Assembly: GCA_037039685.1 (NCBI GenBank)
Contig: JAWNGF010000001.1
Location: 9,796,001 to 9,860,000, forward strand
From: Ceratobasidium sp. AG-K
Taxonomy: Eukaryota > Basidiomycota > Agaricomycetes > Cantharellales > Ceratobasidiaceae
Length of the DNA: 64,000 bases
Direction of reading: 5' to 3'
Below the pieces are notes generated by a model, which did no database searches, had not been told where the DNA came from, and worked only from the letters and a program-made list of their open reading frames with translations. Positions 13,957 through 35,969 of the stretch are shown one piece after another. A program made the translations under genes and the position numbers. Numbering within the stretch: position 1 is the stretch's first letter; each line of letters starts with the position of its first letter.

Positions 13957-16235
13957 ATGGCTACCGAGTCGAAGAGATCGAAAACCGGATGTCTCACATG
14001 CAAAAACAGGTATGTGCAACGATCTTGATACTTGGCGGCACATTCGACAACCTCATAGGCGTAAAAAGTGCGATGAAACTCGGCCAATATGCGAGCGGTG
14101 CATTAAGGCAGGCATGAATTGCCTTGGATACTCCTACCTCGGCGACCAAGGCCACACAGTTGCTAGGGCTAAATCGAAAGCTGCCCAACGCGTTGCGGCT
14201 GCATCCGCCAATACGAACAACCTGTCACGAGATGATGCATCGCAATCGATCGCTCCTCCAGCGGAGCCCACAGGACCATTAAATATCGCAGAGGTTCTCG
14301 CGCCTAGTATAGCTCAAAGCTACGAACCAACGGCGGAGGATTCTCAAAGGCTTTCTGGTGACAGTCCTGCGGGCGGGCTTCTGCTAGAGGATCCTGTCTT
14401 TGATTTTTCTTTCTGGTCTCCTATGGGGTCGTACTCCTCGTCCAGCCCTGAGACTATATGGGACAATAACCCGATGCTAGGGGCAAGCTCAAGCCCGATC
14501 AGCTCCAACGACTCTGTGCCTTCCCCGAAATTGAGCTCGCCTTTGATGGGGAATCCTCCGAGTACTTCGAGACAACAGCTATATGTAACACCTCACCCGA
14601 TGCTAGACTCTAATGTTCTGTCGCTGTTGAATTCTGCACAAACCCTTCTGCTCGGTGACATCTTGAATCAAGCTCAATCTTCAGTTCAACCAGCTGATAC
14701 TGTTCCGCTGCCACTCTGCCTCGCTGGCGGTACCACACTTGATCTGCAAGTGTCAAATCTATCGCAGTCCGAAAGCCAAAAATGTGAAGATGCAGGAGGA
14801 AGCGAGAATTCCGATCCTGAAGGTGCCAAGGTAATCCTTATTGGAAGCCCGACGTTAGACCCTACGGCCCAGAGTAACTCGTTGCCGTTTGCACTTCAGA
14901 GTTGTACGTTTACAAACGTCTCCCGAATTTGAGAAAATGCTCATATGGTGAGGACCAGATGCTAATTGGATGGCCAATGTGGTTTTCGAGCCAGCCAGGC
15001 TCGCGTCCGCCTTGAAATCTCGGGTCACGATGAACTTTAAGCGCTCGAAAGATTCACGAGTTACTCTAACTATGTTTGCTGGACTATTGCATGCTGTGTG
15101 GACGAAGGGAGCACCTACGCCAGACTACATAAAGATTGCTTCACTGCTGGGGCAACGCGTAAAAAGCCGCGCTATCCAAGCTCGCTCGAAGCTGCGACTC
15201 ACCGCAAATGACAAGGATGATATCATGGTCATTCGGGAGTGCCTAGAGGTGAGCACTTTGCCTATTTTGAATTTCGCTTATATCAAACCGCATGAAGATG
15301 ATACCGCTGCTTTGTCTGACCTCACCCTCGAGATCCGCTTACGACCTTTTGAAAGAAACGGCCCCAGTGTTTCGTCGCGCATGCCCTGAGCCTCCAGGCG
15401 AACCCATTGACCTGCCGAGCAAGTTTATTGACTCAGACGTCAGCCTCCGGCATTTCATTGTACTGGACGTATTGCTAAGTATCACTTTTGGCCGACCGAT
15501 GCTATATCGATACAAAGCCAATTATGACTTTGCCGGTGGGTACGCTGCCTTTTCAACCAGGATCAAGGGTCTACAGTGGTTGAACGGAATGCCTGATCAC
15601 ATCGCGTTCCTGGCCGCCCGAATGAACATGCTACGTGCTCACCACGAATCAAAAGTGGATCCGGAGATAATATTAGAACTGGCGCAAGAGCTACAAGACT
15701 TTAAACCGCAAATCTGTACCTCGGATGATGCATATCTTCCGGTCGCTCGCTTGGCAGTGCAGGAGATCTGGAGGCTTGCAGCATTGGTGTTTTTGTACAT
15801 GGTGAGCCACGCCTCGAAGCTCAGTTAGGCACTATGTTAACTCTCAGAAAAGGGACTAGACGGTGCAAGCGCAAATGATCCTCGAGTCGTGAATGTTTAC
15901 AAGAACTTTATTCGCTTATTCAGGAGAACTACAGCAGGTAGAATGCCGGACGCCTTCTTGGTTAGCCCAGTTTTGATGGTATGCCATTCCTTCACGACTG
16001 CACATCAGTCAACTTATTTTGTGCGCAGTTGGGTGTTGCGTCACAGGACGAACAAGAGAGAGGACTGATTCTTCAGCGATTACTCGGTCTTCGTGAATGC
16101 GCGACTCCTGGAACATTCGGAAATGACGTCGTACTGGTCTTAAACAATATCTGGGCTCGCTCAAATATTGAGGGGCGACCAGCCGAGTGGGATGATCTGC
16201 GAATCGGGTACTTGGGGGTTTTGGGAGACTTCTGA
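13957..16235 (+). CDS. Zn(2)Cys(6) transcription factor, family copy 2
   Basis: Tandem paralogue of copy 1. Exon 1 reads MATESKRSKTGCLTCKNR; across a 49-nt intron it continues RKKCDETRPICERCIKAGMN-C, so all six cluster cysteines are present. The linker is Ser/Pro-rich and ends in SENSDPEGAKVILIG and NSLPFALQSCT. The C-terminal domain shows WMANVVFEPARLASALKSR, ELL-type block LLKETAPVFRRACPEPPGE, RHFIVLDVLLSITFGRPMLY, VARLAVQEIWRLAALVFLYM, and a last exon with LGLRECATPGTFGNDVVLVL ending at 16235. Exons are open throughout. It is the closest relative of broken copy 3 downstream, sharing DPEGAKVIL, FKRSKDSR and the LTSPSRSAYDLLKETAP region. Confidence 0.83.
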
Positions 16236-16485
16236 GGATTGGGTGAAATAAATACTTCCATTTTGGGGTTTCAACTTAGCAGCACACGGACTTTTCGCCT
16301 GGCGGTGTGAAGTGGTAAGAAGGACTACACCACAGTGTTACAGAGCAAGAATTTTAGTGACTAGGTCAGGGCTGGATTTTCCCAAAAACACTAAACCTAG
16401 CGAGCGACCAGCTCACTGGCCGTGGGATGGGGAAACTCACATGTATTTTTCTCGCCCACCTGCTGGTAAACGTGGGCTCAAAGTT

Positions 16486-17216
16486 TTTATTTTTATTTTT
16501 TTTAATCATTTATACAAATAAGTTGCGTCGAGGCATAGCCTTATGTACAACTTCTGTAGCGCCCGAGGGTCAAGCGAGAAGAGAGGAGGAAACCGAAAAG
16601 AGCGAAAGGACATCTAAGCACGAGGGAGAGGAAAGGAAAGCCAAAAGTACACTAACTAAACAGAGGAAACTAAGTTAACTATCTAAGCGAGGAAGCGAAG
16701 CGGCCCGTGGCCTTGACGTAGCCGAGAAGAACCCGGATGCCCTCCGGCGTCGAGAGGAGAAAGCTGAGTGCTAAATACTCCCGTCCCAGTGAGCCCAGGT
16801 GCTCGTGTCGCTCCGCCCCGAAGGCTGGACATCGTGCGATAAGGTGTGTGATCGTCTCGGGCTCCGTGTTGCAGAAGGAACATACGTCGGTGTCTATGGA
16901 GTTGATACGATGCAGGTGAAAACCGAGGGCGACGTGCCCTGAGATTAGGCGAAACAGGAGCGTGGCTCTCGAACGATTGAGGCCGTTGACCATTCCGAAA
17001 AAATATCTAGGATCTAATGCATTAAGCCTCCTTCTCAGCTTGGATGCCGCTTTTGAGTCGGCCCAGAGTTTGTCCGCCAATTCGCGGTTTGCTGCTACGA
17101 AAACTTCCCGGAGTTTCTGAGGGTCTTTTAGCGGGGTGTAGGTCGCAAGGAATGGGGGTATTCGATCGGTGGGGTATGCCTTGCCACGCGCTGCAGCTTT
17201 TGCTTCTCGGTCGGCC
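16486..17216 (-). mobile_element. 5'-truncated non-LTR (LINE) retrotransposon insertion
   Basis: The insertion is bounded by a 13-bp target-site duplication, TGGGCTCAAAGTT, at 16473-16485 and 17217-17229. On the minus strand the element ends in an A-rich tail (AAAAAAAATAAAAATAAA, against 16486-16503) directly at the duplication, as in target-primed reverse transcription. The 5' end is cut inside the RNase H region, so only the last 730 bp remain. Confidence 0.88.
16679..17216 (-). pseudogene. C-terminal remnant of a LINE reverse transcriptase/RNase H polyprotein
   Basis: The open frame begins at the truncated 5' end with ADREAKAAARG, the typical end of a LINE RNase H domain. It continues RELADKLWADSK, RATLLFRLISGHVALGFHL and CSFCNTEPETITHLIARC, a Cys/His (CCHC-like) zinc motif common at the C-terminus of these polyproteins. 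It stops at 16679 after GRFASSLR. The endonuclease and reverse-transcriptase domains are missing, so it cannot move by itself. Confidence 0.85.
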
Positions 17217-17339
17217 TGGGCTCAAAGTTGGCAACAATTTGAAGCGCATACAATTGAGCTCATATCTAAGTCGACGAGCCCTAACTCGCTCATTTATGGG
17301 GAGATCTGGGGCGAGCAATCCTAGCGTTAGCAGCCTGTG

Positions 17340-17585
17340 CTATCGTTAGTGAGTCAGTCCCTCGATCCCGAAGGTGCCAAAGTGATCCTATGTGAGACTC
17401 CAGCGCTGGACCCCAAGGTTCGAGATAGCTTCGTCCCATTTGTACTCCAGAGCTGTACGTCCAGACTTTCGTTATTCAATCCTATCCCTCTAAGTTAAAG
17501 ACAAGACGCTAATTGGATGGCGCGTGGGGGTTTTGAATCGATGAGGCTAGTATCCTCGTTAAAAATGCGAATCGCATCGCGTTTC
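17340..17585 (+). pseudogene. Zn(2)Cys(6) regulator family copy 3, left part (interrupted)
   Basis: The fragment starts within the linker (SLDPEGAKVILCETPALDP, then PFVLQSCT) and continues over an intron into WMARGGFESMRLVSSLKMRI, matching copy 2. It breaks at 17585 where the 14-kb transposon begins. No zinc-cluster exon is found upstream; the preceding 1 kb holds the LINE remnant and unrelated sequence. The gene was therefore already 5'-truncated, or its 5' end lies elsewhere. The right part is at 31597-32790. Confidence 0.8.
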
Positions 17586-18039
17586 TAGTGCAAGCCGGAG
17601 TGATACTCGTTTTGATCCGGCACAAACCGACGGATGCGGATGCAGTTAGACCACGTGAGTGATACTTCCGCTAGCGTGTCAAGCGGTCGCCGGGGTCTCT
17701 GTAGGGTCAAAATAATGCATCCACTAGTGGCGCACTAGTGTGACACTAGTCGGAAGATCCTAATCTCCGCCCGGCAAGACCCTGTCGAGCCCCACAACCC
17801 CGGACACTTCCTCGCTTGTCGAAACTGTTCGTGTTTGCATTGTTGAGGATGCTTGGGACGCCCTGCTTGTGAACAGGCGGATATGTATATAACACAAATA
17901 TAACTCATACTACACACTGCCCGGTAGGGCTCTCAAGCGCTCACAATTACGAGTTTTGCGTCGGACTCCTGAGTTACTAATAAGCACTCGCCGGAACTCG
18001 TGAGCTCGGGCCGAATTCACTTGCAATGGCTCGTGCGTA
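17586..18039 (+). repeat. Left terminal inverted repeat of the 14-kb element
   Basis: About 455 bp pair with the reverse complement of 31140-31596. The first mismatch is at 17776. Beyond it identity stays high with small indels, fading after TGGCTCGTGCG near 18037. It holds a cluster of three ACTAGT motifs at 17721-17753 (CCACTAGTGG, GCACTAGTGT, ACACTAGTCG), likely transposase contact sites by analogy with subterminal repeats of other elements. A TATA-like ATGTATATAACAC lies near 17882. Confidence 0.93.
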
Positions 18040-18236
18040 TTGGTTTCGTGATGTACCGGCTTGCGTTCACACGAGGGACTTGTGATTGGCTCGTAACATG
18101 TGGTTCAGAGGGATTACTAAGCCTCATGCTTATGGACCGATTGCGTCCATCCTGATCTATCCCTGCACGATTTTGGTTTACCCATCACCACAAGACCACG
18201 ACTTCCCTCCTCAAGTCTAACGACGCTGTCACTTAC

Positions 18237-20048
18237 ATGAATATGGATCAACAATCGGGCGTGGTTCTGCCCACATCGAAGAGCCAGATGCCAAGCAATA
18301 TCCCACCCAAACCGGTGCTCAAGGGACAGTCACCGACCGTTCATTCACATTCGGAGACCGCAAACAATGTGAATGTGAGTAAGTTATTTTAGATCACATG
18401 AATAAACAGCCTACATGTGCGTCAGGAGAGGGGGAACAGGGGCAAGGGGAAGAAGGGCAAGGGGAAGAATAGCAAAAAGATCAGTAGTCGTATAAGAAGA
18501 AGAAGGCGGCGTGGTGAGTTACAATTACTATCGTCGCACGCCAGCTAAGCATTTGCTAGTGGCTGAAAGAGCCCTACGCGCGTTTGAATTATTGGAGTCT
18601 ATTGGTCACAAGATTGTAGACCGACCCTTGAACGAGCTTACGCAACGCGAACTTGTCGATCTCAGCGAGAGGCATATTTATATTCCTGGTACCGAGGGAA
18701 ACGAGACGTCACGCGTGATAATACTAGACCTCGACGAGTGGGTCGCTTTTTGGAAACAAAAGAACAAGATACAGGACCCAGGAAAGCTTTTTGCGAACAA
18801 GCGAATGGGCGTTCGGCAGGCCGAACTCGAGCGGCTTGGTTTCAAGTTTCTCAGCCATGGCACGGTATATGCGATCAAAAAGGAAGCTGGCGTTGACATA
18901 CTTGTGTTTTCCGTTAGCTTCCACCCAATTGGTTGTGACAGGGACACTCCTGGGGGTCTCACGCTTTCAGAGATCCGAGATATCCAGTTCTTAGCGGTGT
19001 GGTTTTACCAACTGAAGGAAACAGGTAAATTGATTACTACAAATCGTGCACATCAAGGCACTGGCCAAAGTAAGTCTCCATTGTGGTGAATCGGCTGTCT
19101 AACCTTATAATTTTGATGAATAGATGGTGGTATGAATGCTGCGGGTTGGCGAGCTGGAAGCGACAAAGGCTTTTGTGTAGGCTTGTATGCACTGCATAAG
19201 AAGTTTATGGATTGGATTCAGCACCAGAACGGGATGCGTCAAATAGCGGCAAGTCACTTAGCTTTTGTTCAGCTTATTCCTGACTGTTATCTCAGCGGAT
19301 CTATACTTCATTCTTCAAAAAATTGGCTCCAAATGTGTGCGAAGCTGCCCAAACGTTTATGAAAGCGTATAAACTCCCCGAACTTGGAAAGATCACCTAT
19401 AAACCTCATGCAGAGTGTGTAGTTGTTGAGGTGCGAGCTCAATATCAATTGTCTGAGACCTGCTATCAATAACACTTGCACCGTTTGCAGAATAGCAATA
19501 TTCCTGCGCATACATCCAACAGAAGGGCCTCAGGTCAATCAACTGTGTCAACTGATTCACAGGACTCGAGTGGCCCGGACAATGCTCTGAGCCCAACTGG
19601 CTCTAGCCTTTATGTATCGCATTCAAACTTCTATAACGAGGTTCATCACGATCATGACATTAGCCCGTATGCATTTGGATTATGGCTAACGACCCGAGGA
19701 TCGGACAAGAAGGTGGAGCGATCGCCCGAGAAGATTGCTGCCCATATTAAGGGTGGGCAATTCTTTTTCCCAGATTATGGCGTAGCGATCGATTTCAATC
19801 ACTGCGGTGGTTTGACGTGTGTCACCTGGCGAGCACCCCTTGACCGACACGCTACGGCATTTACTAGTACTGTTCGATCGGAAGAAAACTACATGCGATG
19901 GGGTTCGTCTATTCAGGTCACAAAGCGAGTCTTCAATGCGGCGCAAAAAGTGCGCACTATGGGAAGTGATGTGCGGGATGCGCATGCGTATGCAGACGGA
20001 AGAGTTGGAAGTGGAATTGGGATCGGAAAACAAAAGGGAAAGAAGTAG
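18237..20048 (+). CDS. TET/JBP-like 2OG-Fe(II) dioxygenase, transposon cargo
   Basis: A 2-oxoglutarate/iron oxygenase of the TET/JBP-type group expanded in Agaricomycetes is predicted; relatives oxidise 5-methylcytosine or thymine in DNA. The start ATG at 18237 is followed by a short exon, then a Lys/Arg-rich exon (GKGKKGKGKNSKK, RIRRRRRR) that could be a nuclear signal. Then come FELLESIGHKIVDRPLNEL, FLAVWFYQLKETGKLITTN, GWRAGSDKGFCVGLY, SNFYNEVHHDHDISPYAFG (H-x-D iron ligands), GGQFFFPDYGVAIDFNHCGG and WRAPLDRHATAF (distal His). The product ends at 20048. Two splice points are unusual: a GC-AG intron at about 19249-19297 and a possible 31-nt intron near 18514-18544, so exon 2-3 joining is uncertain. 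It lies just inside the left TIR and reads away from it. Confidence 0.72.
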
Positions 20049-20164
20049 TTAATGTAGAGACAAACAATACATTTCATTTTTTATTTCGACCCTCTCGTCT
20101 CTTTCTATTTTTCACTTCTCGGAGCTCTTGGACACTTCCTCAAGGCGCCTTCGGCCGCCTTTTT

Positions 20165-21240
20165 ATGCACTCTCTTACTTGTAAATTAAAGCGGCTCGGG
20201 AGTTCGATGCTCCCTACCACTTTCGACTCCAATTTACTCGCGTTTGATGCACTCTACCCATCTCACTTTCGCACTTCGTCTCATTGCCCTTGCCTTTCCC
20301 GACGTCGCCAGCCCTCCCCAACACTGTCGCACTCACTCTTCCCTTTCAGCGCTTGCCGCTTACTCAGCAGCGCCCAGTTTCAAGTCCAACACGTACCTCG
20401 CCCAATGCTCGCTTCCTCACGTCCCGAGCTGCCCTAACCATTCCCGCACAGTTCGTGGTGCGCACGACTGCCCACAAAACTCGTACCCGGCAACTCATCC
20501 GCACCCTTGCACGGGCCGATGGGTAATCGTGGGCCTTGGACCATCGGGGCCAGTCTGCGCTGTCTGGCCTTCGCGTATCGACAAACAACTCCCCCATTTC
20601 GTGTTCTATTTTTCTCTCCCATCCCTCTCTCTCCTTTGCTCCTTGGGGCTTTCGCGCTCTTTCTTACAACACCTTCGGCTTCGAGTCTTCGCTTGTATTC
20701 TCGGCTTGTATATACAAAGTGACCTGGGAGTCCGATGCTCCCTATTGCTTCCGAATGTAATGTATTTTATCTATTTCTACTACCTTGCCTGCCTCTTGTT
20801 ACAAACCGAGTTGTAACATCAAAGACAACCGGCACGTGACCAGCCATGAACCACACCGTCTCTCACGTCTCGACGAGCACCCGCTCCCCTGCTCTCCCGG
20901 GATGCCCAAACCATACTTGCGCCATTCCTGTTGCGTATGAATGCTCGGCGACCTACGACTCTCGTCTCAGCGGCTCCTCAGCATCCGAGCGCGGCCCGGT
21001 CGGGTAAACATGGTTGCTTGGGCCATCGAGCCCTGCACGCGTCATTTGGCCTTTGCCTGTCCGCGAATACCTTTGCCCGTTTGATTTTTCTATTTTGTTT
21101 TCCCCTAGTCTCTCTCTCTTTTCGCTCCTCCTCTCTCTCGGACTCTTTCTCATGGCATCTTCAGCCGCATTTACTTGTATTATCACATTTGTATATAAAA
21201 GCGGCTTGGGAGTCCGATGCTCCCTACCCTTTTCAACTAT
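20165..21240 (+). repeat. Degenerate tandem units with GGGAG-loop-CTCCC hairpin
   Basis: Three related units end in TGTATA/TAAATT-like sequence, GCGGCTYGGGAG, then TYCGATGCTCCCTA. The hairpins are at 20198-20214, 20726-20742 and 21208-21224, spaced about 528 and 482 bp. Upstream of hairpins 2 and 3 similar blocks recur (a GGGCC-rich block, a CTCTCTC-rich block and a CTTCGGC/CTTCAGC block), so the whole unit is duplicated, not only the hairpin. The loop of copy 1, TTCGATG within a 5-bp stem, resembles a tRNA T-arm. No protein-coding gene is supported here. Confidence 0.6.
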
Positions 21241-22064
21241 AATCTACATGTACACTTACTATCTACTCGCTCGCCCCCCCCCCCCTCTGCACTTCATTGC
21301 ATGGCCGTTGACTGGTCTCGCTTCGCTTGCCTCGGCGCCGTCCTGCTCGCTCTCTTCGGTCGGCGCTTACTGCTGAGTCAGCAGCGTTGCGCGCTTCGCC
21401 ACATCGTCTTTGCTCTCATCAACGTCGCCTAGCCTTCTCATGGCCGCCGCATTCGCCCTCGTCCCTAGGTAATTGCTACCTATTCAGCAAGCATCTCGGT
21501 ATGAGTCTCGTATCTCTGAACAGTCGGACACTCACCAACAGTCTCATTTGAGTAGGTCATGTGACCGGGCCAGTTGTTATGTTCTGTGGCTCCGCGACTG
21601 GATTTGATTGGGTTAACCACCACCCCAACCTCACGTGTCATCGTTGTACTTGCCTGGCAATACGACACAAATCGTGCTCAGAGCCTATTTGAAGGCACGG
21701 GCGTCGTTTGGTGGCACTGTGCGCGCGTGGCATTGTTCGCAATCCTTTTGGAATGCGGACTTGTGAGACCGACCGCAATGTGATTTATCACATTGGTTCT
21801 AAATTTGGGAACAGGGGCTTATCGAGAACTGGGGGTACATTGGGAACTGGGGGCTCATCGAGAAGTGTGGATGCATCACGAACTGGAGGACTTGTGGCGG
21901 TAGATGAACTTAGTTTGTTTACCGAGCAAGACTTGTTCGTGGCCAATTCGTTTTTCTATCGATATTTATGTTGCTTTGTTGTCGATCTCAGTAGGTTGTT
22001 GAGCTATGTGTCAGTCCTCCCTCGGCTAACCACCTGCGTCAGTTTCTAAAGTTGCATATGGATA
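21241..22064. other. Non-coding spacer inside the 14-kb element
   Basis: A 12-C tract at 21274-21285 opens the stretch. Near 21820-21890 there are short repeats of the type GAACTGGGGG and GAACTGGAGG. I see no coding gene. A candidate promoter for the next gene would lie here. Confidence 0.45.
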
Positions 22065-25000
22065 TTGTCGGCGTGCAGCCTTGTATTGATTCTACCTGTA
22101 AGTCGGCGGCGCTCGGTCATGTTTGCAATACTTACTCCAGTCAGCGAGCTGGCCGTGTGTTATGCAGGCACGATCCCTCCCCCAACCTCGCATGTCCACA
22201 AGCAGGATTTTCCTGCACCAACGAGCCACACAAGGTCAAGACCACAACTCAAGAAGTAGCGGCCAGAGCAACCAAGGGGGACTTCGTAATCGAGGGGAAC
22301 ACCCAATTTTCGGGTGGGAAGGGAGGGTTCGATGGCGACAAATAGCAACGGGCGTGACCGGCATCACCAACGGACTCAGATTCTGCACTGACAACGACAA
22401 GGACAAGGAGGCAGAGCCAGAGAGCGTACCAATACCGTCAGCGCCAACCCCTCCACAGTCGACGGCCGCTGCTCCCGCGGTTGTTTTTACCAAACCACCC
22501 GAGGCGTTGGGTGTGAGGTCTAACCCAGCTTCTTGGTGGCTTCAGGGCTGACACGACCATAGACCGCAAGACCCTCGCTCGACGCGTGAGTTTTGCCGCT
22601 ATGGCTCAAGTTCAGTGAGTATCTTGTACGCGAGGTGGATTCATATATCTTATGTCCCCCAGTATGTTTGAGTCAACCGTAAATTCGGATGCGGCCGCTT
22701 CCTCTTCTTCCCCTGCCCACTCCTTGCCCACTGCCAACCCTCCTGTCCCCGAAGCTTTGACATCAAAGTGGAGCCCGGCTCCCACGCGCTGCGCCAACAG
22801 TGAAGAAATTGGTGAAGCCTCAATGGAACTCGACGGTGACAGCGAGCGCAGTATGGAGGCCGGTGATAGTTTCGGAGCCGAGGAGAAAGCATTTGATGGT
22901 GGCAAGGGTGAAGGAGAGGATAGCATGAAGTTGACGGACACCTATCAGATTGGTACCCCCTCCCGACGTCATTCCTTGGCTCCCATGGCATCCCCCCCCC
23001 CTCGACCGCAGCGTAGACCGATGAGACCTCAGTTGTGCCAGCGATATGGATGAGCAGACAGAAGAGCTGCCCAAAGACAAGGAGAAGGATAGCAAAGAGT
23101 GGTCAAGACTGGCAAGTCTATTGTCCCCCAGCGGAATAGCGAGGCTTGGGCCGAGATTCAAATCCTTACGCACGCAGGAGAGGAGCCAGACGACGATAGC
23201 CCCCCCAGCACCATGAACTCTGAGTTTTGGGGTGGATTTATTCCCGCGTCCCAGGATTCGTAGTCTGCCCCTTTCAGCTTGCAAGACACATATCCGACTT
23301 CGAGCTCCCAGCGGAGCACTACCAATCGGGACATGGGGTTGGACGATGCTCTCTCGCGCCTGCTAGCTGTCAGACAGAGCTTGGGCGCTGGGGGGGCCGA
23401 CATCCCCATTGACGACGAGGACGACAACCGCTCAAGCTCGAGCGGTGACTTTGAGGGACGATTTGATGGTGAAGACTGCACGATGGACGTGACCGCTGTC
23501 ACTGGGGGACTCAGACTCTGTGGACGAGGCCGAGGGAGAGAGCGCGCCTGCACCATCAGTGCTGGCTGCTCAACAACTGACGGCCCCTACCCCTGCCTTT
23601 GTCTTTATTGAACAGCCCAAAGCGTCTGGTGTGGCGTCCAACCCGGCTTCAAGCGCTACTCCCAACTTGCCAACATTTGCTGTAGAACCTCCTTTGCCTG
23701 CTGCCCCCGAGCCCCAGGCTCCCATTGCACCCGCCGCTCCTATCACTTTTGCTGTCCCGTCTTCTCCAAAGCCGACCGCCAAAAAACCTGCTCCCTTGTC
23801 TGCTCCCGCGCCAACATTTGCAGTCGACCCAGCACCTGGACCATCTAGCCTCGCAGCACCTTCAAATCCTCAGCCTGCTCCTTCGCCGAGAGCGCGATTG
23901 CCTCTCACCTTTGAGGTTTCCCAGTTGCCCGTGCGCCCACCTCCCGTATCGTGGAGTCCCCGCAATGCGCCAGGGCCTTTCGAGTTCAAGCTCCCGGGTG
24001 GGAGCACTCCTTGACGCTGTTCGTCTGCTGGGGGCTTGAACGTGACCTCCACCCCCCCACGCGCGACTACTCCCATCCCCACTGGAACCCCGAAGACTGT
24101 TGACGCTCCAACTCGCGCTACGTCTGCGCCTCCTACACTCAAGCGCCCTCTGGAGGAAGCCAAAGAGCAGGGGGCAGCGAGGAAGAAGCAAGCATTGGCG
24201 GCTCCCAAACCAGAGAAGAAGGGCACAGCCAAGCCACGTCGTCGGAGCTTTGCGCCTCGCATGTCCATGTCAGTCATGGGTCAGACTGGTCGCGGCGTTC
24301 AAGATCCAGCTCCTGTGGTTGAACCTTCCCCTCCCCAGGCCCCGTCTCCTCCTCCGGCTCCTGTAGCGTAGCAACCCGCACCTCAGCCTCCCTCGCCCGT
24401 CCATGAGCCTTCTGTTGCTGCACGTGCTAGCCCACCGCGTCCTACCACTCCGCTGAGCACGAACCGTCAGCGTCAGGTGCCCGCTTTGCCGAAGCCAGCG
24501 GCGTCGCTCGAGGAGATCAGAGTTGCCAGCCCACTTTGCTCTTGCGTGGGCGCAGTGAGGGCCAAGTCGCCCGCACAATGGAGAACAGGCGCGCAGAATG
24601 AATTGGAGCTCGATGATGTAAGTTGCATTGACTGCCGTGCTATATGGAAGTACTCATCTTGTTGTGTAGGTTCCTGCGATCTTGGCGAGCGACTTTTTGA
24701 AGATGACTCGCATCTTGTTTATGGATGGGCTTATGGTCAAGTGTCGCTCAACTGTCGGGTTGGGTATCCTCGGTCGCAAGCAGAGAAGCGAGAACCAGCC
24801 TGTCCCTGGCGTAGCGGGTAACATTACTGCAATGACTGTTGGTGTCCCACAGCTCGAGACGTTTAACTATGTGAGTAGACCGGAGGACACGGAGATTCTA
24901 CAGCTTGACTAACTTCATCCGAATAGGCAAGCACAGAGCTTAAAGAGTACATCTCAAATGGCAAAAAGGCGATCCGTATCCTCGAAGACGACCTGGATGC

Positions 25001-25580
25001 GAATAACCTGTACTTGTTTAAGGAGTACTCGGCGAGTGGGGAGGATGATTGTCGTGCGATCACGGTTTGTCGTTCTTGTCTGCAATCCCAACTGAGACTG
25101 ACACATTGCCTTATAGGAAACCTTGGGGGCCACAAGGAAGCTATGCGCATGCGTTCCAAGATGTCCTGGTACAAGTGGAGGTATAACTTCGTCACTGATA
25201 TGCAAGCTGCTTCTGATAGCCAGACGAAACTACTTTAACACGTAAGTTTGACTCTTGATTTTCTACACAATGTTTTAATGGGTCTCCTGCAGGATGTGGC
25301 GTCGTTGCGAGTGACTGGCAACCAACTTACGGAGCCCATCATGTCCCTGCAAGAGGAACACGTGAAGCTCAAGGCCCAGCTTGCAGTGGAGCGCGTTCCA
25401 GTTGAAGCACTGAAGGATTGCAATCCGGAACCCATGAGCGAACTCATGACTGGAATAACAGGACAAGAGTAAGCCACTTCTTCAGCCCTGCTTCAGGCCT
25501 GGTCTGATTGTCCGGGACAGTTTCTCGTCAGATTGCCACGTTAAACCTTGAAGAACGTGCGCATACAACTGATGAAGCTC
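22065..25580 (+). CDS. Pro/Ala-rich low-complexity protein gene, transposon cargo (exon structure uncertain)
   Basis: I do not recognise this gene. The middle (about 23560-24370) encodes a disordered stretch rich in Pro, Ala and Ser (APTPAFVFIEQPKASG, then LTFEVSQLPVRPPP) followed by a basic segment (GTAKPRRRSFAPRMSMSVMG). The 3' part has well-formed introns near 24619-24668, 24871-24926 and 25062-25117. Its exons read VPAILASDFLKMTRILFMDG, VPQLETFNY and LKEYISNGKKAIRILEDDL, and the gene ends in a probable coiled-coil (LTEPIMSLQEEHVKLKAQL). An internal duplication links 22345-22530 with 23480-23665 (both read roughly GLR-C..., then FTKPPEALGVRSNPAS versus FIEQPKASGVASNPAS). Start, stop and the 22.1-23.5 kb exons are not certain. 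Being between the other cargo genes and in the same element, it is a candidate accessory protein. Confidence 0.4.
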
Positions 25581-26032
25581 CCTCGACAAGCATGTTAGTT
25601 TATTGAATGTAGTTACCTTGTAGTCTAGCCTAGGTAGATTGTGGAATAAATACATTGCATCTAATATACTATTAGACAGAGCCCAACTTGAAACACACTG
25701 CAGGCAAATTGAGGCGTGAATAGCTGTGCGTTTGGCACATCAGGTAGTGGTGGTGCTTGTGGGCTGGTCAGCGCATTGATGGGGTGCAAAATAGGTATGG
25801 ATTATGTCTATCAGGACGCCAACAACCAAATCGCAAAAGCATAAACAGAACCTATAGTAACGATGATTATGAAACGCAATTGGCCATCCCAATCGGTCTG
25901 GTTTGGCCTCTTGCAGTGCAACATTAAAACTCCAGACGAAGGCGCAATGGAAAGGAAAGTAAGCGAGAATATTATTGGGGGTGCAAAAGAAGTAGCAGTA
26001 GGTCACAAAGGAACGTTGGGGAAACAAAACAG

Positions 26033-28813
26033 TTACTCGACAACAATATCATCAGGGAGAACAATGTCGCCAGGCTTGAAGTACTCGCAAAGATGTTCCC
26101 TTCGCATTGATGCTGTTGTGGGAAATCTAGGTACGTCTCTGGGACATTTCCACCAGCAAAGAGGATTCCTAAATCACTGCAATCACATATGTAACCATTA
26201 GTGCATTGTACTCATGTTATAGTAGAACTTACGGGTTGGTGATCATCTGCGGGTCAGTGAGAATAATTTGGCCTGTGTTCGCATCAACGCCACCTGGATT
26301 CAACGTCTCAGCAGTTGGCATTATACTCCACTTTGGGCACGTACCTTGCCAATCCGAACAGAATGCCCGACCCTTTGTGATAATCCATTGGATGTGCTGC
26401 GCAAAAGCGCAGAATTGCGCAGGATCCTTGCATACGTGCCCAGCAGGGAAAACACATGGTATCGCGGATGCGTTACCTAGAAGCCAAACAAACGTCAAGG
26501 ATGAAGGAATCAGTTCCTCGACTAGAAACGTGCCATGAAGAGCTTCAGAAGCCTTCTTCCCGGGATGGATTGACTTGGCAAGGCCCACGTTTACAAAGCG
26601 CATGCATGGAATTGCTGGAGCCTCATAATCGGCCAACGCGGAGGTCTTCTGCTCCTCAATAAAGGAGTAGACACCAGTGAGCAGAGCATCAGCCCATTGC
26701 CAGGTCACGGCTTCCGTAAGAAGTAGCCGTAGCTCCTCGGGAACATGGTATCGTGTCGTTGTACCTGGTCGGTTTGCGTCGGTCTGAAAGGGTCGCTTAA
26801 GGGCAACAATCATTGTTGCCTTGTTGCTGCTTGGCCAGAGTGGGGCGCATAAAGAGATTTGACCTTTGAAGCAGTGCTTGAATCGACCTGTCCCAAGAAG
26901 ATTCCTGATGTTGTACGCCACAGTGCCATTATTGACAGCTGTAACATCGTCCATAAGCTCTGGAATAGGTGGCACATTGTAGAGATCCTCGTAAAGGACT
27001 TTGGGGATCGCGTAGAACTGAATCATGTCGGATTTGGATCCTGGTACAATTTCGATAAAATCAGCTTCTTGACGAAGACCCGTGTTACGCGAAAGAAACA
27101 AAACAAGGACAATGTGGAGATAAAACATACCATTTGACTGACTAATATTTATCTGCTGGGCATGCTTACGAAGTGCACCATCCACTCGAGAGCTGGATTG
27201 GATAACACGAGATGCAGCAGACAGCGAGAAAGCCGGTTGAGTACGCTTGTGTGGTGGTGAATTTGGTGGGGAAGTGGGAGACAGCTGACATTGACGGATC
27301 ATGAAATCATGTAGCCAAGTCACCAAGAAAGCACAACATACCGGAAGCGCTCGCTTTTTGCCTTTTGACTTTGGCGTGATTGGCTCCAGTTGTGCTGAGT
27401 GCAAAGGTTCGTGATTCCTCCGGGGTGTAGCAACACTAACTGAGAGTGCTCGGTTTGGGGTGGTTGAAGTAATTACGGTCATTGGAAGGTCGGTACAGGT
27501 ATACGCACGCGCCATGGAGTTGAGCAATCCGTTGTCGGCACTACTATTGTTTTGATCAGCTCTTTGCAGGGTTACAGGGGTCGAGCTTGCTGTAATCTGT
27601 GGCTCCTGGTTGATCTACATTACGAAAAACAATCAAGCTTGGTTCAAATAATTGTGAGCCACGTACCAATGCTTTTTGAGTTGTGATATGCTCGTCAACA
27701 ACTTCGTACATTGCGCTATCCAGGACTAGAACCACCTTCACACTTTGATGGTGTTTGAATCGACCAGTGCCCTTGACGGTGTTGGCAAGACAGAGGCGGT
27801 AAATTGCTTCAGATTCGGGGAAGTCGCGTACAAGGTCAACGTTCGTCTTGGCAAGGCGCAGAGTAAAAATCTCATCCTCAAAGGGATAGTTTACCGTTGC
27901 CTTTGCCCAATGCTCAGCCGCATGATCCATAACAAGCTCCTTGAGTTGTGGGCCAGTCAAGTGGGCATCAACGTTGGAGATACCATCCAACGGAATCCGC
28001 TGAGGGTGTATATTTCAGTACTGGCAATACAACTACTGACGGCATACTCGACTCACAAAGATTGGCCTGCTCTGCTTTCCAAACTGTGCTTCAACTGAGT
28101 AGCTTATAACACAAACTTCAAGTGCCCTAGGGTCAGAAGCCAACCGAAGCTGACGAGTTCGGGCATTCATTGGAGCATAATGGGCATGAACAGGGAGATA
28201 CCCTCTCTGTGACGATGGCTCGGAGCCTGGCACATATGTTGATGGTCCCTGAATAAACCGTGAGGATGACACACGAGCTGGAGAATATATGCCCGGTATG
28301 GCCAAAACTTGAGGTTTGAGGAGATCTATTAACGATGAGAGGTCCAATGAGCAAGGGAATTGCCAAGTTCAACATGGGCCAAGAAACCAGCTTACCGCCA
28401 CGCTGGCTGGCACTGGAGGCCGCCCGAATTACAACTGGATCAACAGCATGCAGATGCGGGCCTTTGTATTGTATTCAGCTGACAACTCAGTCACCCATTC
28501 TATCAAATAAAAACATACCATGACTCTGAGTGGGTGACGCGATCTGTCTTGAGCTTGGAGTAATTTGTCGCAGCTTGGTCCCCGGCTTCTGATCAACATA
28601 TGCTTTACAGTGTTCGCATAGAATGTAGAGCTTGTTCGTATTACTGCCTCCAACTGGGAATGAGGGCTGGCCTGGGTGTATCGTTGGCCCTGCAGGGTTT
28701 TTACATCCTGTTGGGTACTGGCATATCTGGGCTGTTGGTGGGGCTGGAGCACTGAACTCAGCAACTACCTCATAACCATGAGGAATAGGCGCAGCGTGAG
28801 GGACCTGGTTCAT
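26033..28813 (-). CDS. Alpha-type (MHCK/eEF2K) protein kinase, transposon cargo
   Basis: The alpha-kinase fold is an atypical Ser/Thr kinase family. I start at the ATG at 28813 (MNQVPHAAPIPHGYEVV). An N-terminal Cys-containing segment (CQYPTGCKNPAG ... LYILCEHCKAYVD) may bind zinc. A middle region (VRDFPESEAIYRLCLANTV, GTGRFKHHQSVKVVLV) joins, through an intron near 27610-27663, a Ser/Pro-rich linker. The kinase core follows: NLLGTGRFKHCFKG (Gly-rich loop), MIVALKRPFQ (Lys), GTFLVEELIPSS, CAFAQHIQWIITKGRAFCSD and GQIILTDPQMITNP, then DLGILFAGGNVPETYLDF after an intron near 26180-26235. At 26089-26091 the frame slips by one base: the family's C-terminal Cys motif (CEGNIF-C-EYF) is only read with one extra A. 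The conserved frame stops at 26033; otherwise translation runs to about 25977. Confidence 0.72.
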
Positions 28814-29003
28814 GGTTGTAGCGGACGACAAAGACAGGATGCAACATTGTTTGTATTTGTTATAACTAGTTCAACTGACAGCTGATTTGCTTTTCTGAAA
28901 AGGCAATTTACCTTGAGTTGTCGCTCCAAGTAACTGACCTGCATAGCATTGAGAGGCAGTCTAGGATTTCTTGGTTGCCATAAATACATTGCCTCCTACA
29001 TGT

Positions 29004-30731
29004 TTACCAATCACATCCAGGCCCATTCCCCTCTATATCCTCATCCCCACTCAGCTCACCAATATCAAGTTCGCCCATAGCATCAATGTCATCCAGCCCA
29101 TTCGCAACGTTGTTCCACTCCTCAACTGGCCCAAGGAGCTGGAGGTCGTAACCCCACATATTACCACGGGCAGCGCCAGTATCCGATTGCTCCAGCAGCA
29201 TTTGATACAAGTTTCCTTGGTATAGAACCTGCTGCTGGCCAAGCATACTGAGCTCGTAGTTCACAAAATGCGCAACAATACCCTGATAATAGAACCACGC
29301 ATTCGCCCTCTCGATTGGCTCGCCCCCAACCGCCTGGTGAAGTTTGTTGACATGTTCAGCAAATTCGTGTGGGAGGAACTCAAAAACAGGGTCATTGGGC
29401 GGTGCGTACAGCTGGCGGACGTGGCTCAGCGCCTCAGGAGGGACTGGAATCTTTGAAAGTGTCAGGGAGTTAGACGTATAGGGAAAGTGTTGGGCACAGA
29501 CAGATAACCACTCACACAAAAATCCTTGGCACCATACTTCTCCGGCCATTCATAAATGTTAAGTGGTGCGTCATTTGGGAGCACTGACTTCCGGCTCGAG
29601 CGGCGTGGACTTGAATTGACTAGGGTCATGTACAAGTCAAGTTCACGTTGGATAAGTGGCATAAATATGAAGCGAAAAACAAGGCTATGGAGGAAGAGTT
29701 AAATCCAGTACCAATATAATAGGCCATCTATGTTACTTACAATTGTACATGAATGTGCGGGTCATAAATACCTTGCTCCACACCTTGTGAGAGTAACTCG
29801 GTAATGGCGGGAGCAAAACGCCGACGAAGGCCTGCCCATGCGACCTCTGGTTTCTTGTTACCATGTTTCTTGGAGTGAATATGCTGCATCGTTCCCTGTA
29901 GACTTGGATCCAACATTTGGCGGAGGGTGCTCTGCGCATTGGCAATGCCGTAGTTCTCTGTACCAGGGTCACTCTGTGTGAGCATTGGCATGCCTTCAAG
30001 GCATATTCGTAAGTAGTTCTGAGAAGAAAGATTATAATAACTCACCTTGGTGACCAGCGCGTTCAATTGCATCTAGGAAGTATCCACATATTAACCGAGG
30101 GTTAGAATTTGTCCACCAGACGTTCATCCAAATTATGAGCCCGCTGTAATTATCGACGCAGACATGCAACCAGAGGCCATAAAACTTCCATTTGTCGTGT
30201 TGGTCAACGGCCCAGATCTCATTTACACCAGCGCAAATGAACGGCTTTCGAGGAATGACTTGTGACTGACGTGCGAGAACCTTCTCGGGCTCGTGAAGCC
30301 GAGACCACTCCTGAATTACAGAGCTGAACGAGGTGATGAGAAAGTCAGATTGCAACTCAGGAGAACACTCACCGTGGAACACGAAGATTTCCACCGAGAC
30401 TTTCCACTCGAAGCAGATGTCGTGTGTCAGATACACCCGAGTTGGGATGGCGCTCACGTAGGTCCATCATCACTGGATGGAGTGTCTCTACTGAGTGGTT
30501 CTGTTGGCGAACGCCCAGGAGACCTAAATCCTTTCGTAGCTTTCGGAACGATTGGTAACTGAGATTTCGGGAATTCAAATGGAGATACCACAGTCCAGCA
30601 ACGCAAAGAACTAACCTTAAACTATAGCGGCTAGTATCAATATGTTTCTGAAGGAGGCGTTCATGGATTTCCTTATCTCGGAGCCCACGAGACCAATATT
30701 CTCGGATGAGTGTCTCTAACTCAGGGGTCAT
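29004..30731 (-). CDS. Integrase-core (DDE) transposase of the 14-kb element
   Basis: The likely transposase. I start at the ATG at 30731 (MTPELETLIREYWSRGLRDK), which opens a helix-turn-helix-like N-terminus. Five GT-AG introns then join clean exons: SYQSFRKLRKDLGLLGVRQQ, EWSRLHEPEKVLARQ, VNEIWAVDQHDKWKFYGLWL (first catalytic Asp), VDNYSGLIIWMNVWWTNSNP, MPMLTQSDPGTENYGIANAQ (second Asp), GNKKPEVAWAGLRRRFAP (Glu), LVFRFIFMPLIQRELDLY and a C-terminus with YAPPNDPVFEFLPHEF ending in an acidic tail at 29004. Basidiomycete genomes contain many proteins with this integrase core and the D-Q-H-D-K-W and VWWTN motifs. All exons are open, so the protein may be active. It reads towards the alpha-kinase gene and lies near the right TIR. 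Confidence 0.85.
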
Positions 30732-31139
30732 CTCGGCTGATACAGATGTTTGACCAGCAATAAGCAATCAGGCCAACTGACTAGCATTCATACGCACGGA
30801 GCTTTCGTGGGCCAACCACCTTTGTGCCAAGGGGTGGCATGACGATAGTAATGCTTGGTTGTAGCTGGGATTGGTAGGATGCGAGTGAAAAAAACGAAAA
30901 AAAAAAACAAACCAAAGTGTCACCAGCTGCCATTTTTTATACGTAAGTCCAGGAACGTTTCAAATCATACCCAAACATAACAATCACATACTAATAGTGG
31001 CGCATATATACACTCTCAACAAGCTCGACATAGTGGAAAGAATCAACTACGTGCGCTTGCAACAAATTCCAAGTTCATGGGGTTTCATCATCGTGACGAC
31101 GCTCTCTCCGGACTCTGGCAGACTTGCGAGGGCCAGCAG
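30732..31139. other. Spacer between transposase start and right TIR
   Basis: About 400 bp containing the transposase promoter region. There is an A-rich run near 30885-30910 on the plus strand. No gene seen. Confidence 0.5.
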
Positions 31140-31596
31140 ATGCGCACGAGTCATTGCGAGTGAATTCAGCCCGAGCTCACGAGTTCCGACGCGTGCTTAT
31201 GAGTACTCAGGAGTCCGGCGCAAAACTCCTTGTCATTGTGGGCGCTTGAGAGCCCTACCCAGCAGTGTGTAGTAGAAGTTATATTTGTGTTATATACATA
31301 TCTGCCTGTTCACAAGCAGGGCTCCCTAAACATATTCAACAATGCAAACACAAACGGCTTCAACAAGCGAGGAGGTGTCCGGGGCTGTGGGGCTAGACAG
31401 GGTCTCGCCGGGCGGAGATTAGGATCTTCCGACTAGTGTCACACTAGTGCGCCACTAGTGGATGCATTATTTTGACCCTACAGAGACCCCGGCGACCGCT
31501 TGACACGCTAGCGGAAGTATCACTCACGTGGTCTAACTGCATCCGCATCCGTCGGTTTGTGCCGGATCAAAACGAGTATCACTCCGGCTTGCACTA
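31140..31596 (-). repeat. Right terminal inverted repeat of the 14-kb element
   Basis: Reverse complement of the left repeat at 17586-18039, with the outer 190 bp identical and the inner part diverged by substitutions and small indels. It carries the same three-fold ACTAGT cluster near 31429-31461 and ends CCGGCTTGCACTA against the CGTTTC duplication. Confidence 0.93.
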
Positions 31597-32790
31597 CGTT
31601 TCAAACGCTCGAAGGACTCGCGGATCACCTTGACCATGTTTACTGTTTTAATACATGTGGTCTGGACCAAGGGAGCTCCCGCGACCGATTGTGGAAAAAT
31701 CGCTTCCCCTCTTGGGCAACGCGTGAAGGGGTGTGTAATTCAGGCCCGTTCGGAGCCACAACAGAACTTGAATAGCGATGCAGATATCAAAGTACTTCAG
31801 GAGGCACTGGAGGTGTGTGCTTCATGATTGTTTCCATTTTTGTCTCAAACTACAGCATTTACATATGGTACCCCTACTTTGCCTGACCTCCCCCACAAGA
31901 TCTGCTTACGAACTCCTGAAGGAAACAGCACCTGTCTTTCGCCGCGTATGTCCCGAGCCGCCAAGCGAACCAATTAATCTCCCAAGCAAGTCTACCGACT
32001 CAGATGTCAGCCTCCGTCATTTTACGATCATTGACGTGATGCTGAGTATGGCCTTTGGTCGCCCGACTCTTACGCCGATTACGGGTTTCCTGGAGGCTAC
32101 AATGCTTTCGCAACCAAACTCCAGGGGCTAGCGTGGTTACATGGCGTACTCGATCATATCGCGTTTTTGGTTGCTCGAATCAACATGTTGCGCACAATGA
32201 GGGTGGGCCCAAAGCCGCTTCTGAGACGATAGTTGAATTGGCGGAAGAGTTGCGGGAATTTAAGCCCCAAGTCGGTGATTCGGAGTACGCATTTCTCAAG
32301 GTCACCTGCTTGGTGGTCCAAGAAAGCTGGAGGCTTGTGGTGTTTGTATTTCAATACACGGTACGTTATATATATCGGGAATTTTAATTGATTTGAACCA
32401 AGGGACTGGCCGGTGCGAACGCAAATGACCCCGGGGTTGTGAAAGTTGACAAGAACTATGTTCGCTTGCTCGAGAGGGCTGCGCCTGGATGAACTCCTGA
32501 TGGGTTTTTAGTGAATCTGACTGCTTACGTATGTTTTTACTTGGACACGCGTCGCCTCAACCTGACTGTATGCACAGCTGGGCGTTGCTACACAGGATCA
32601 AAATAACCGGGAAATTATTCGCCGATGGTTGCTCGGAGTGCGAGAACGCGGCACTCCTGGAACATTTGGTAGCGACGTGTTGTTAGTCTTGGACGACATA
32701 TGAGCTCGCTCAGGTGAAGAGGGGCGGCCGTCCGTGTAGGAGAATTTACATATTGCGTACACGAAAGTTCTAGATGATGCCAGAGCGTCC
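31597..32790 (+). pseudogene. Zn(2)Cys(6) regulator family copy 3, right part
   Basis: This continues the gene cut at 17585. It reads FKRSKDSRITLTMF, VWTKGAPATD, LTSPTRSAYELLKETAPVFR, SLRHFTIIDVMLSMAFGRP and AEELREFKPQVGDSEYAFLK. Independent damage shows it is dead: a frameshift near 32075 after FGRPTL, another near 32200, and a TGG-to-TGA change at 32700-32702 in the last exon where copy 2 has NNIWARS. Some of the damage lies over 1 kb from the insertion, so it does not depend on it. Confidence 0.85.
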
Positions 32791-33593
32791 GGTTAATGCA
32801 CCTGCGCTTGGGCAGCGCGACTTTCTACCATCAATCCCTCGGCCATTTGTACAATATAGCTATTTGCTCTCATTTCATGTATATCACGCCTATACGTAGT
32901 CTCTTGGTTAGTAAACCAGCCTATGGCTCCCGGAGCGGGGTGACCACATGGGTTATTAGGTAATGGCAAACCTAGTTTCAGCCTGCGGTGAAAGGTGCCC
33001 GGTTACCCTCTAATTCTGGTACAGTAATAACGGCCAACAATTCATCCATTCGATTTAACGTTGTTCTTTCAAGAATTGGTCCAAGTAGGGTTGTGTTCCT
33101 CGGTCGTCTGAGGCCACCAGATTTGGTATGTGTACGTTGTAAACCGACATCGACACAGTTAATATGAATCGTGCTTGCAGCCAAAGCTTGAGCTCCACAA
33201 CGAGCCGGACTCAGCCTAATGTGCCCGACTCTGAATGACTCAGAGCCGGTGATGTGTGACCGAGGGTTTGCTATCGTGTCTCAACCTCAAAACGACGAAT
33301 TGGTAATGTAACTGCAACCGAGCTGAGTGCGGCTAAGGAGAAATGCACTCATGACGGGTTAGAACTCCATGGATGCACTTAATGCCGTATCATTTTGAGA
33401 TGGGATATGTATGGATATTTGTACAAGAAGGGGTGCGCAATGATCGATCACAGCACCGACAAGCGACCTGATCAATCCTTGGATATGCCACGTGACCGGA
33501 TGAAAATGCAACTCAGCCACGCCCTCGGCGGCAATCGCGGGGGTTTCCTGCGTATATTTTCTTGGTCATTGGTCTGCCTACGACGACTGCGTC
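32791..33593. promoter_or_regulatory. Intergenic; promoter of Zn-cluster copy 4
   Basis: No gene seen. CACGTGACCGG is at 33489-33499, 105 bp before the ATG of copy 4, matching the spacing in copies 1 and 2. Confidence 0.5.
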
Positions 33594-35969
33594 ATGTCTG
33601 CTCCACTATCCGCTGGGAGGGTGCGGTCGAAAACCGGGTGCTTGACATGCAAGAATAGGTTCGGTCTAAAGACAGTCGCCGGCTCTTGGCTGATCATCCC
33701 TACAGGCGAAAGAAGTGTGATGAAACTCGGCCATTGTGCGAAAGATGCAAAAAGGCGGGGATGACATGTCTGGGATATTCTTACCTTGAAGACTCGGGGG
33801 ACAAGGCAGTCAGGATTAGGTCCAAGGCTGCAGCTCGGGTGTCGGCTGCCAAATCTGCTGCGGCAACGCACGGAAAGAATGATTCCCCCCATCCTGGCCC
33901 ACCCCAAGTCCATCCGCCAGTCACTCCTCCCACTCCTTCGACGGCTGCTGTAGCAAGCCCACCCATGCCAGCCCGGACCTCCTTGCTACCATTGATTCCC
34001 GGCATGGCGCGTGACAGCAGTATGTTGCCGACATCCACACAGACGACATACGACACCACGCCCAGCGGCCACTCTGTGTTCAACAGCGTCTTCGACTTTT
34101 CATTTCTGTCTCCTCTCCAGCCTGGTGCGGCATTTAATCCTGGGCTCGGCGACACCACCGAGTGGAATGTGATTTTCCCACCGGGAGAGGTTGGTGATGC
34201 GAACTCGGCCCAGCATTCTGAAGCGTATCTGGACCCGGCATATGGTACACAAATCGACCGGCAACTTGCGTGGGGTTCATCTGGCCTGTCCGAGATCAAC
34301 CAGATGCCCGTAGCGCCCAGCACACGACCGAACTCGAGCCCTGACCAACCTCGCTCAATGACGTCTGGTCAAGCAAGCCTGTTCAATGCTCTTTTCAGCC
34401 TCGGGCAACCCTCCGCCGAACCCACACTCCCCACCCCTGCTCCCTCGACCAGCTACACCACTTCGCCCGCCTCGACCTGGCCATCGCCCGACGTCGAAGT
34501 GGACTCGGATTCGAATACGAGCGAAGATTCGGATCCAGAAGGAATTAGGGAAATAATCTGCAGCACGCCAACCCTGGACACCACCGTCCAGAGTAACTCG
34601 CTACCGTTTGTTCTTCAGAGCTGTAAGTAGGCATTCAAACCCTGGGACCGCTCTCACCCTCGCCCAGATGCTCAATGGATATCTCGAACGGTCTACGAAC
34701 CGCTGAGGCTAGCTTACAAGGTCCGACACTGGGTCACGCTCCGTTATACCCAGTCAGAGGACACGCGGACAAGCATCACCATGTTTGCAGGATTGTTGAA
34801 CGCCATGTGGAAGAAAGACGCCTCAACGTCCGAGTATCGTCCCCTTATCTCGATGGTCAGCGAACGCGTAAGAACCCGGGTGATCCAGGCTACCTCTGGG
34901 TTAAGACTGGCGGCAACGAGCCAGGCCGAGGCTGCAAGTGCCATGGACGAGGCGACTCAGGCGTTGGACGAGGCCATGGAGGTGATTACACTCTGACTCT
35001 TTCCATCTTTTCTGGCTCACCACGCTCGCAGATGGTAGCAGTTCAAATGCTATCAGCTCCCATGCATAATGCCATGAGCCTCTTTATCGAGGCTGCCCCA
35101 CTCTTTCGCATGGCTTGTCCCGAGCCTCCTCACGAGCCCCTCATCAATCTCCCAGGCCTATTCATCCACCAGGACCTCAACCTACGGCATTTCGCAGCCA
35201 TTGATGTCGTCGTGGCCGCAACCCTCGCCCGACCGATGCTATTCCGTTACGACGTGCACTACGATCCGGCAATGTGCAACGGAATTATGGATACCGAGGA
35301 GATAGGCCTGCAGTGGTTGAATGGGATCCCGGACCAGATCGTACTTTTATTAGCGAGGATGAATATGCTCCGCGACGATTTCGGACCAAACGTTGACCCG
35401 GGAGTTATCCAAGATGCTGAGAGGGAGCTGCGAGACTTTACTTCGCAGCCTGGAGTCTCAACGGACGCCTATTTGATAATTGCCAGGCTCGCCGTACAAG
35501 AATGCTGGAGGCTAGCGGCGTATATTTACTTGTACATGGTAGGTTATTTACTATGTGATATAGGGCTAGACTGACTTTGTTAGGGTTTGTGCGGCGCGAG
35601 CAGCGCTGACCCTCGAGTCCAAAAATACACCAAGAGCTTTATTCGTCTACTCGAGAGGACCAAACCTGGTCGAACCCCCGACTCGTTCCTAATCGCCCCG
35701 TTGTTATTGGTAAGCCTTGGAACCTGACGCTGGGTCCCCAGTCTCACATTATTGCTCAGGCTGGTGTGGCAGCTCACCGGCAACGCGACCGAACCCTGAT
35801 CCAGCGGCGACTACTGTCGGTCAAAGAATGCGCCAACCGTGGAACGACAGGAAATGACGCTGTGCACATGCTGGAGGACATATGGACCCGGACAAGTGCC
35901 GAGGGACGCCCGGCTACATGGAACGACCACAAAGTTGCTGCTTCGAGTATTTTGTTTGGGCTATCGTGA
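33594..35969 (+). CDS. Zn(2)Cys(6) transcription factor, family copy 4
   Basis: Exon 1 (MSAPLSAGRVRSKTGCLTCK) joins across a 48-nt intron to RKKCDETRPLCERCKKAGMT-C, so the binuclear cluster is complete. The linker is longer and richer in Pro/Thr than in copies 1 and 2. It contains SGQASLFNALFSLGQP, a block shared with copies 5 and 6. EDSDPEGIREIIC and NSLPFVLQSCK follow, then YEPLRLAY, FIEAAPLFRMACPEPPHEP, LRHFAAIDVVVAATLARPML, IARLAVQECWRLAAYIYLYM, and a last exon with SVKECANRGTTGNDAVHMLE ending at 35969. All exons are open. It lies about 0.8 kb downstream of dead copy 3. Confidence 0.85.

Follow-up and report, generated by a model that had tools for sequence, protein, structure and literature searches.

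An IS3EU-like transposon with TET/JBP-like dioxygenase and alpha-kinase genes in Ceratobasidium sp. AG-K, and the CpG mutation footprint of its copies

Why should a DNA transposon carry a gene for a TET/JBP-like dioxygenase? The question is raised by a stretch of 64,000 nucleotides of Ceratobasidium sp. AG-K (contig JAWNGF010000001.1, positions 9,796,001 to 9,860,000), a fungus of a genus placed in the Cantharellales, Agaricomycetes. Within this stretch, which we call the window and number from its first base, lies an element that carries TET-like, alpha-kinase and transposase genes and has moved as a unit into three sites. The element is real, mobile and recently active. We think that it is probably a DNA transposon, IS3EU-like and carrying an anti-silencing load. 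The CpG mutation footprint in its copies suggests that the element has been methylated, and does not itself point to removal of the mark by its TET.

The ends of the element are common to the three copies. The first-pass annotation had assigned it inverted repeats of 455 bp and a 6-bp duplication, CGTTTC, and both assignments stand. The repeats (17586-18040 and 31142-31596) align in three blocks without gaps, of 368 nt (94%), 24 nt (96%) and 66 nt (89%); by BLAST they are 92.8% identical across 458-459 columns, and CGTTTC flanks the element on both sides. When the genome is searched with the first 195 bp there are six matches, corresponding to both ends of three elements. The full copies are that of the window (14011 bp, duplication CGTTTC), C12:48134-62141 (14008 bp, CAGAGG) and C3:3919743-3944699 (24957 bp, GCAGCA), so that two further copies with matching cargo and 6-bp duplications of their own exist in the same genome. 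The C12 copy matches that of the window at 99.6% identity and the C3 copy at 99.5%. The C3 copy is longer because a second transposon is nested inside it, a 10,948-bp insert at the position equivalent to window 29170, within the last transposase exon. The insert contains a Plavaka transposase (PF18759, E=1.3e-78), and its termini, CATCA..TGATG with a 2-bp duplication as assigned by eye, resemble those given for PlavakaB by Kojima 2025 (PMC12730594). It also has open frames similar, by eye, to a P-type calcium ATPase.

An empty counterpart of the window site lies at C1:9887415-9887813, where the 400-bp joined flank matches at 399 of 400 bases and CGTTTC occurs once; the match prints as 100% identity by rounding, the letters differing at least once. 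This site belongs to a segmental duplication of the window region without the element, in which window 7231-16485 and 31597-41130 correspond to C1:9878001-9898768, near the end of C1 and subtelomeric. The aligned blocks are of 9257 bp (99.7%), 7647 bp (99.5%), 1900 bp (98.7%) and 369 bp (98.6%), and the two segments differ additionally by insertions of approximately 0.7 and 1.6 kb. It had also been claimed that removal of the element restores a host reading frame. At the window this argument is weak, because the joined flanks give frames across the site of 73, 75 and 103 amino acids and frames of 61-96 amino acids already span the right boundary while the element is present. At C12 and C3 the argument is strong: taking out the element and one duplication leaves uninterrupted WD40-repeat frames, of 571 amino acids at C12 and of at least 577 amino acids at C3. 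Two of the three insertions thus sit in WD40-repeat reading frames, which with three sites may be chance.

The three cargo genes that had been proposed are borne out by matches to PF20515, PF02816 (just above the cut-off) and PF24764. Their models were built by hand from splice signals and homologues, without transcripts. The exons and frame of the TET gene are open in all three copies. One intron, at window 19249-19295 (+ strand), has GC-AG rather than GT-AG borders. Five homologues were found, all in Ceratobasidium, the best being FRC07_012031 with 42% identity, and the putative metal residues H, D and H (HxD..H) are invariant in the six aligned proteins. The window TET and its five relatives therefore have HxD, in contrast to the HxE that is the hallmark of the PE-type TET of Kojima 2025 (PMC12730594). 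At the AG-type positions, Gly331 and Asp337 of CcTET shortly behind the HxD, the window TET would have I and G by simple offset counting.

Beyond the element, PF20515 is matched at nine more loci (C3:100-120 kb, C3:352k, C4:312k, C4:330k, C17:148k, C1:81k, C11:477k, C8:2110k and C14:4k). Seven were fetched, and six of these belong to a single repeated unit whose members are near-identical (C3:100k agrees with C3:342k at 99.3% over 27.5 kb). A SIR2-family gene (PF02146, E=1.1e-18) lies in the unit as well, and the locus on C14 is an older relative, at about 70-77%. No transposase and no borders were found for this second TET-bearing unit in the fetched loci.

To which family does the transposon belong? 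The transposase model matches PF24764 and, weakly, rve, and nothing else. This agrees with the first-pass annotation, which had held that the enzyme is not of the KDZ class; KDZ membership is rejected, since the model lacks PF18758 and the 14 KDZ matches of the genome lie elsewhere. IS3EU (or IS3EU/GingerRoot) elements are described as having TA..TA ends, usually 6-bp duplications, and a first catalytic D at 100-300 residues from the N-terminus (PMC10045372). The element fits this description because all three copies have 6-bp duplications and TA..TA termini (TAGTG..CACTA); the putative catalytic D, assigned by eye in the motif AVDQHDKW, lies at about residue 153. Of the three copies, only that of the window has an open transposase frame; that of C12 is shifted and that of C3 interrupted. 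There are 268 homologues at E<=1e-3, and the best among the matches listed is FRC07_012033 of Ceratobasidium sp. 392, with 55% identity over 100%. In a tree of 38 transposases, comprising the window protein and 37 of the 120 listed homologues, the window protein groups with that of Ceratobasidium sp. 392 (100/97), and the pair sits within an 8-row set that is all Ceratobasidium (100/99). NCBIfam gives weak IS481 matches for two of five proteins tested, a set that does not include that of the window.

The kinase half of the alpha-kinase scores 23.1 bits against PF02816, only just above the cut-off of 21.3 bits; of two relatives, P0127 scores 26.7 bits and P0126 gives no match. The frame is shifted near the C-terminus in the window and stopped early in C12, and is open in C3. 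Of 7997 candidates that were scored, two are homologues: FRC07_012032, at 40% over 99%, and, in Ceratobasidium sp. AG-Ba, RhiJN_11603, which adjoins the transposase homologue RhiJN_11602 by gene number. The TET, alpha-kinase and transposase homologues of Ceratobasidium sp. 392, FRC07_012031 to FRC07_012033, very probably form one cluster with the same order as in the window, because their numbers are consecutive and each is listed on a contig of 13,636 bp. Genome-wide searches with PF24764 and PF02816 were empty even for the element itself, and are hence uninformative on absence.

It had been suggested that the partnership of a TET with an integrase-core transposase may be new. At the level of the superfamily it is not. 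Kojima (2025; PMC12730594, December 2025) describes IS3EU transposons of seven rust species and of Tuber indicum that carry a TET together with an alpha-kinase, and the window element is therefore a variant of a known association, sharing with these the three genes, the 6-bp duplications and the TA..TA ends. It differs in several respects. In all the TET-carrying IS3EU described there the TET lies between the transposase and the alpha-kinase, which point in opposite directions, whereas in the window the order is TET, Spc7 remnant, alpha-kinase and transposase, with the kinase and transposase both on the - strand and the TET on the + strand. The rust families end in TAYGG..CCRTA (PMC12730594), in contrast to TAGTG..CACTA with 455-bp repeats in the window, and the relatives of the window element are in the Cantharellales. 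The carriers described in the same source for Agaricomycotina are Kyakuja, Zisupton, EnSpm, Plavaka and Helitron. The KDZ carriers among them (Kyakuja and Zisupton) resemble our element in being DNA transposons of Agaricomycetes with a TET/JBP gene, but have a KDZ transposase (PF18758), and the Kyakuja families of that paper have 7-bp duplications and no inverted repeats (PMC12730594). The words Cantharellales, Rhizoctonia, Ceratobasidium and Tulasnella are absent from the main text of PMC12730594, and a literature search, which most subscription papers lay beyond, showed, among the matches listed, no report of such a TET/IS3EU partnership in Cantharellales. The partnership does look new for that order and for its gene arrangement.

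The three copies also carry a record of mutation. Substitutions were polarised by majority rule in a three-copy alignment, leaving out gap columns and sites at which all three copies differ. This gives 84 substitutions, of which 65 are CpG transitions, 10 are of the T-to-C type and 9 are others. A C-to-T change is found at 65 of 1538 CpG bases and at 2 of 5593 non-CpG C/G bases (odds ratio 123, p=2.4e-41). By copy, the CpG transitions number 31 in C3, 25 in C12 and 9 in the window. Between the window and C12 copies, the pair used for the element-versus-flank test, 37 of 44 differences are CpG-type, compared with 23 of 76 in the duplicated host flanks (19.1 kb; Fisher p=1.5e-8); the remaining two pairs give 41/50 and 58/68. 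Changes at the CpGs of the element are thus far commoner than those at its other sites and make up a share far above that in the host duplicate, as would be expected of CpGs that the host methylates. In the second TET-bearing unit, taken as a repeated control (5 of its 9 loci, counting only two-state sites with a majority of three or more), CpG-type changes are 26 of 77. In a KDZ element, a tentative further transposon control, two copies depart from the majority at 7 sites altogether, of which 4 are CpG transitions, the third copy being divergent or badly aligned. A single candidate C5-methyltransferase locus was found in the genome (C2:1309 kb).

The changes are not evenly distributed. None of the 182 CpG bases in the inverted repeats and leaders has changed, compared with 3/194 in the TET gene, 11/302 between 20.05 and 22.3 kb, 31/430 in the Spc7 region, 16/238 in the alpha-kinase and 4/164 in the transposase. 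The absence of changes in the ends is improbable under random placement (Fisher p=5e-4, permutation 0.0002). Counted from the two ends, the first CpG changes are met at 1108 and 1061 bp, and the unhit stretches hold 260 CpG bases. As judged from these mutations, the body of the element looks methylated and its ends do not.

How might such a transposon work? The transposase would bind the long inverted repeats and move the element. We infer an anti-silencing function for the carried TET, which would oxidise 5-methylcytosine (5mC) on element DNA, chiefly near the ends, the location of the promoters and transposase sites; expression of the genes would thereby be kept up, and the ends would remain usable. 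A supporting role may fall to the alpha-kinase, which as a guess could phosphorylate a host chromatin factor or the transposase itself. The Spc7 piece is dead cargo. A more specific form of this scheme, which we consider quite unlikely, has the TET editing by place. The inverted repeats, promoters, and TET and transposase genes would then be low in 5mC while the middle cargo is methylated and decaying, the boundary at about 1.1 kb would be a fossil of local demethylation, and the TET would represent a lineage separate from PE and might make a fourth type in addition to PU, AG and PE.

Several observations weigh against an anti-silencing IS3EU-like transposon. An effective TET should lower CpG loss, but decay is strong in the interior. 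Non-CpG changes are also few at the ends, with 1 in 1226 bases against 18 changes in the interior. The predicted fold of the TET is closest to TET enzymes, but the model is poor (mean pLDDT, the predicted local distance difference test, of 44.1), so that we take the fold matches as supportive only, and a search of solved structures by sequence with the TET, singly or as an alignment, gave no match to E=10. Lastly, the placement in IS3EU is a tentative one, made from published descriptions.

Because the ends have few changes of any kind, selection or gene conversion could explain their cleanness. That the ends are clean through gene conversion among the copies, or through selection on transposase sites, and not through low methylation is a distinct possibility, although not the one that we prefer; the scarcity of non-CpG changes there speaks for it, and there are only three copies. 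Against it, the unhit stretches extend inward well past the 455-bp repeats, and the two arms of one element differ by 7%, so they have not been homogenised with each other.

The origin of the CpG footprint could also be different. We consider it unlikely that it arose by mutation targeted to repeats, similar to repeat-induced point mutation (RIP), rather than by long-standing methylation and deamination. Both routes usually pass via cytosine methylation. The element is certainly repeated, but so are the second TET-bearing unit and the duplicated host flanks, and the CpG shares in these controls show that repetition alone does not produce the bias. In Rhizoctonia solani AG8 a CpG-biased hypermutation between nuclei has been compared with RIP, in a paper according to which deamination of 5mC yields the identical change (PMC4014442).

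The TET might instead work for, or on, the host genome broadly, including host genes and other transposons, and help the element only indirectly. We find this doubtful. Kojima 2025 cites Coprinopsis and Laccaria, in which oxidised methylcytosine is found also on retrotransposons, and speculates on non-targeted action (PMC12730594), and the genome does have nine other PF20515 loci; these are, however, the other repeated unit, whose five analysed copies lack a strong CpG bias. It is very unlikely that the TET is a chance passenger, useless to the transposon. The element does contain one dead captured gene, Spc7, and TET homologues are few. Yet the TET frame is open in every copy, its CpG loss is low compared with that of the Spc7 region, and its putative metal-binding residues are invariant. 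Moreover, the homologues of TET, kinase and transposase are consecutive in Ceratobasidium sp. 392 despite 40-55% identity, and independent TET-carrying IS3EU elements are described in rusts and a truffle (PMC12730594). Finally, that genes came to lie between inverted repeats by chance, or that a segmental duplication was taken for a transposon, could be entertained only because the window sits in a subtelomeric duplication with its longest blocks at 99.5-99.7%, and is ruled out by the empty site in the duplicate, the three distinct duplications at three sites and the two host frames that read through.

The coordinates of the features are collected in Table 1. The Spc7 remnant matches C1:5517412-5520405 at 76%, a locus with an open frame of 760 amino acids (PF08317, E=2e-9), and no such remnant appears in the gene numbering of the FRC07 cluster. 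Spc7-like sequence is matched over 1.3-3.0 kb at six further places in all (C1:5517412, C3:3344378, C13:150991, C1:6622576, C11:619007 and C5:1585623). Two of the Spc7-like loci, L017 and L018, are 99.8% alike across 4 kb, so pieces of the kinetochore gene may spread with other repeats.

Table 1. Positions of the transposon and its parts in the window
Feature	Position	Strand	Description
Whole transposon	17586..31596	.	14011 bp; termini TAGTG..CACTA; ends common to three copies with differing 6-bp duplications
Target site duplication CGTTTC, left	17580..17585	.	
Target site duplication CGTTTC, right	31597..31602	.	only one CGTTTC in the empty site
Left terminal inverted repeat	17586..18040	+	455 bp
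Right terminal inverted repeat	31142..31596	-	455 bp
TET/JBP-like 2-oxoglutarate (2OG)-Fe(II) dioxygenase gene	18237..20048	+	6 exons, 517 amino acids; PF20515 E=2.6e-37
Degenerate direct repeats	20109..21247	.	
Decayed Spc7/KNL1 kinetochore gene copy	22535..25478	+	captured cargo, interrupted frames; PF08317 E=3.5e-18 (exon pieces)
Alpha-kinase gene	26033..28813	-	9 exons; PF02816 23.1 bits; 40% to FRC07_012032 over 99%
Integrase-core (DDE-type) transposase gene	29004..30840	-	7 exons, 498 amino acids; PF24764 E=7.2e-15

Outside the element, an open frame at window 16679-17221 (- strand) resembles by eye the C-terminal part of a non-LTR (long terminal repeat) retrotransposon protein, and overlaps the segment of about 0.7 kb that is absent from the duplicate. 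Two contig ends were examined. C1 terminates in TTAGG repeats that span 80 bases, TTAGGG being absent there, and C14 starts without a telomere repeat. The TTAGG motif is the telomere repeat of the insect type; in one survey TTAGGG is that of most Basidiomycota (PMC10100673).

What do these copies mean for TET-carrying transposons? That the TET counters host methylation is offered as speculation by Kojima 2025 (PMC12730594). The genome offers three young near-identical copies and an empty site, and the host segment that was duplicated serves as a matched control; the mutation footprint with its matched controls is the novel contribution of the copy set, and a function of the TET would be a further, inferred step. 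The idea of a TET that counters host methylation thereby becomes directly testable by mapping 5mC and 5-hydroxymethylcytosine on three known copies. The range of TET-carrying IS3EU-like elements apparently extends to a further fungal order, in which their genes are arranged differently, and repeated capture or rearrangement is therefore indicated.

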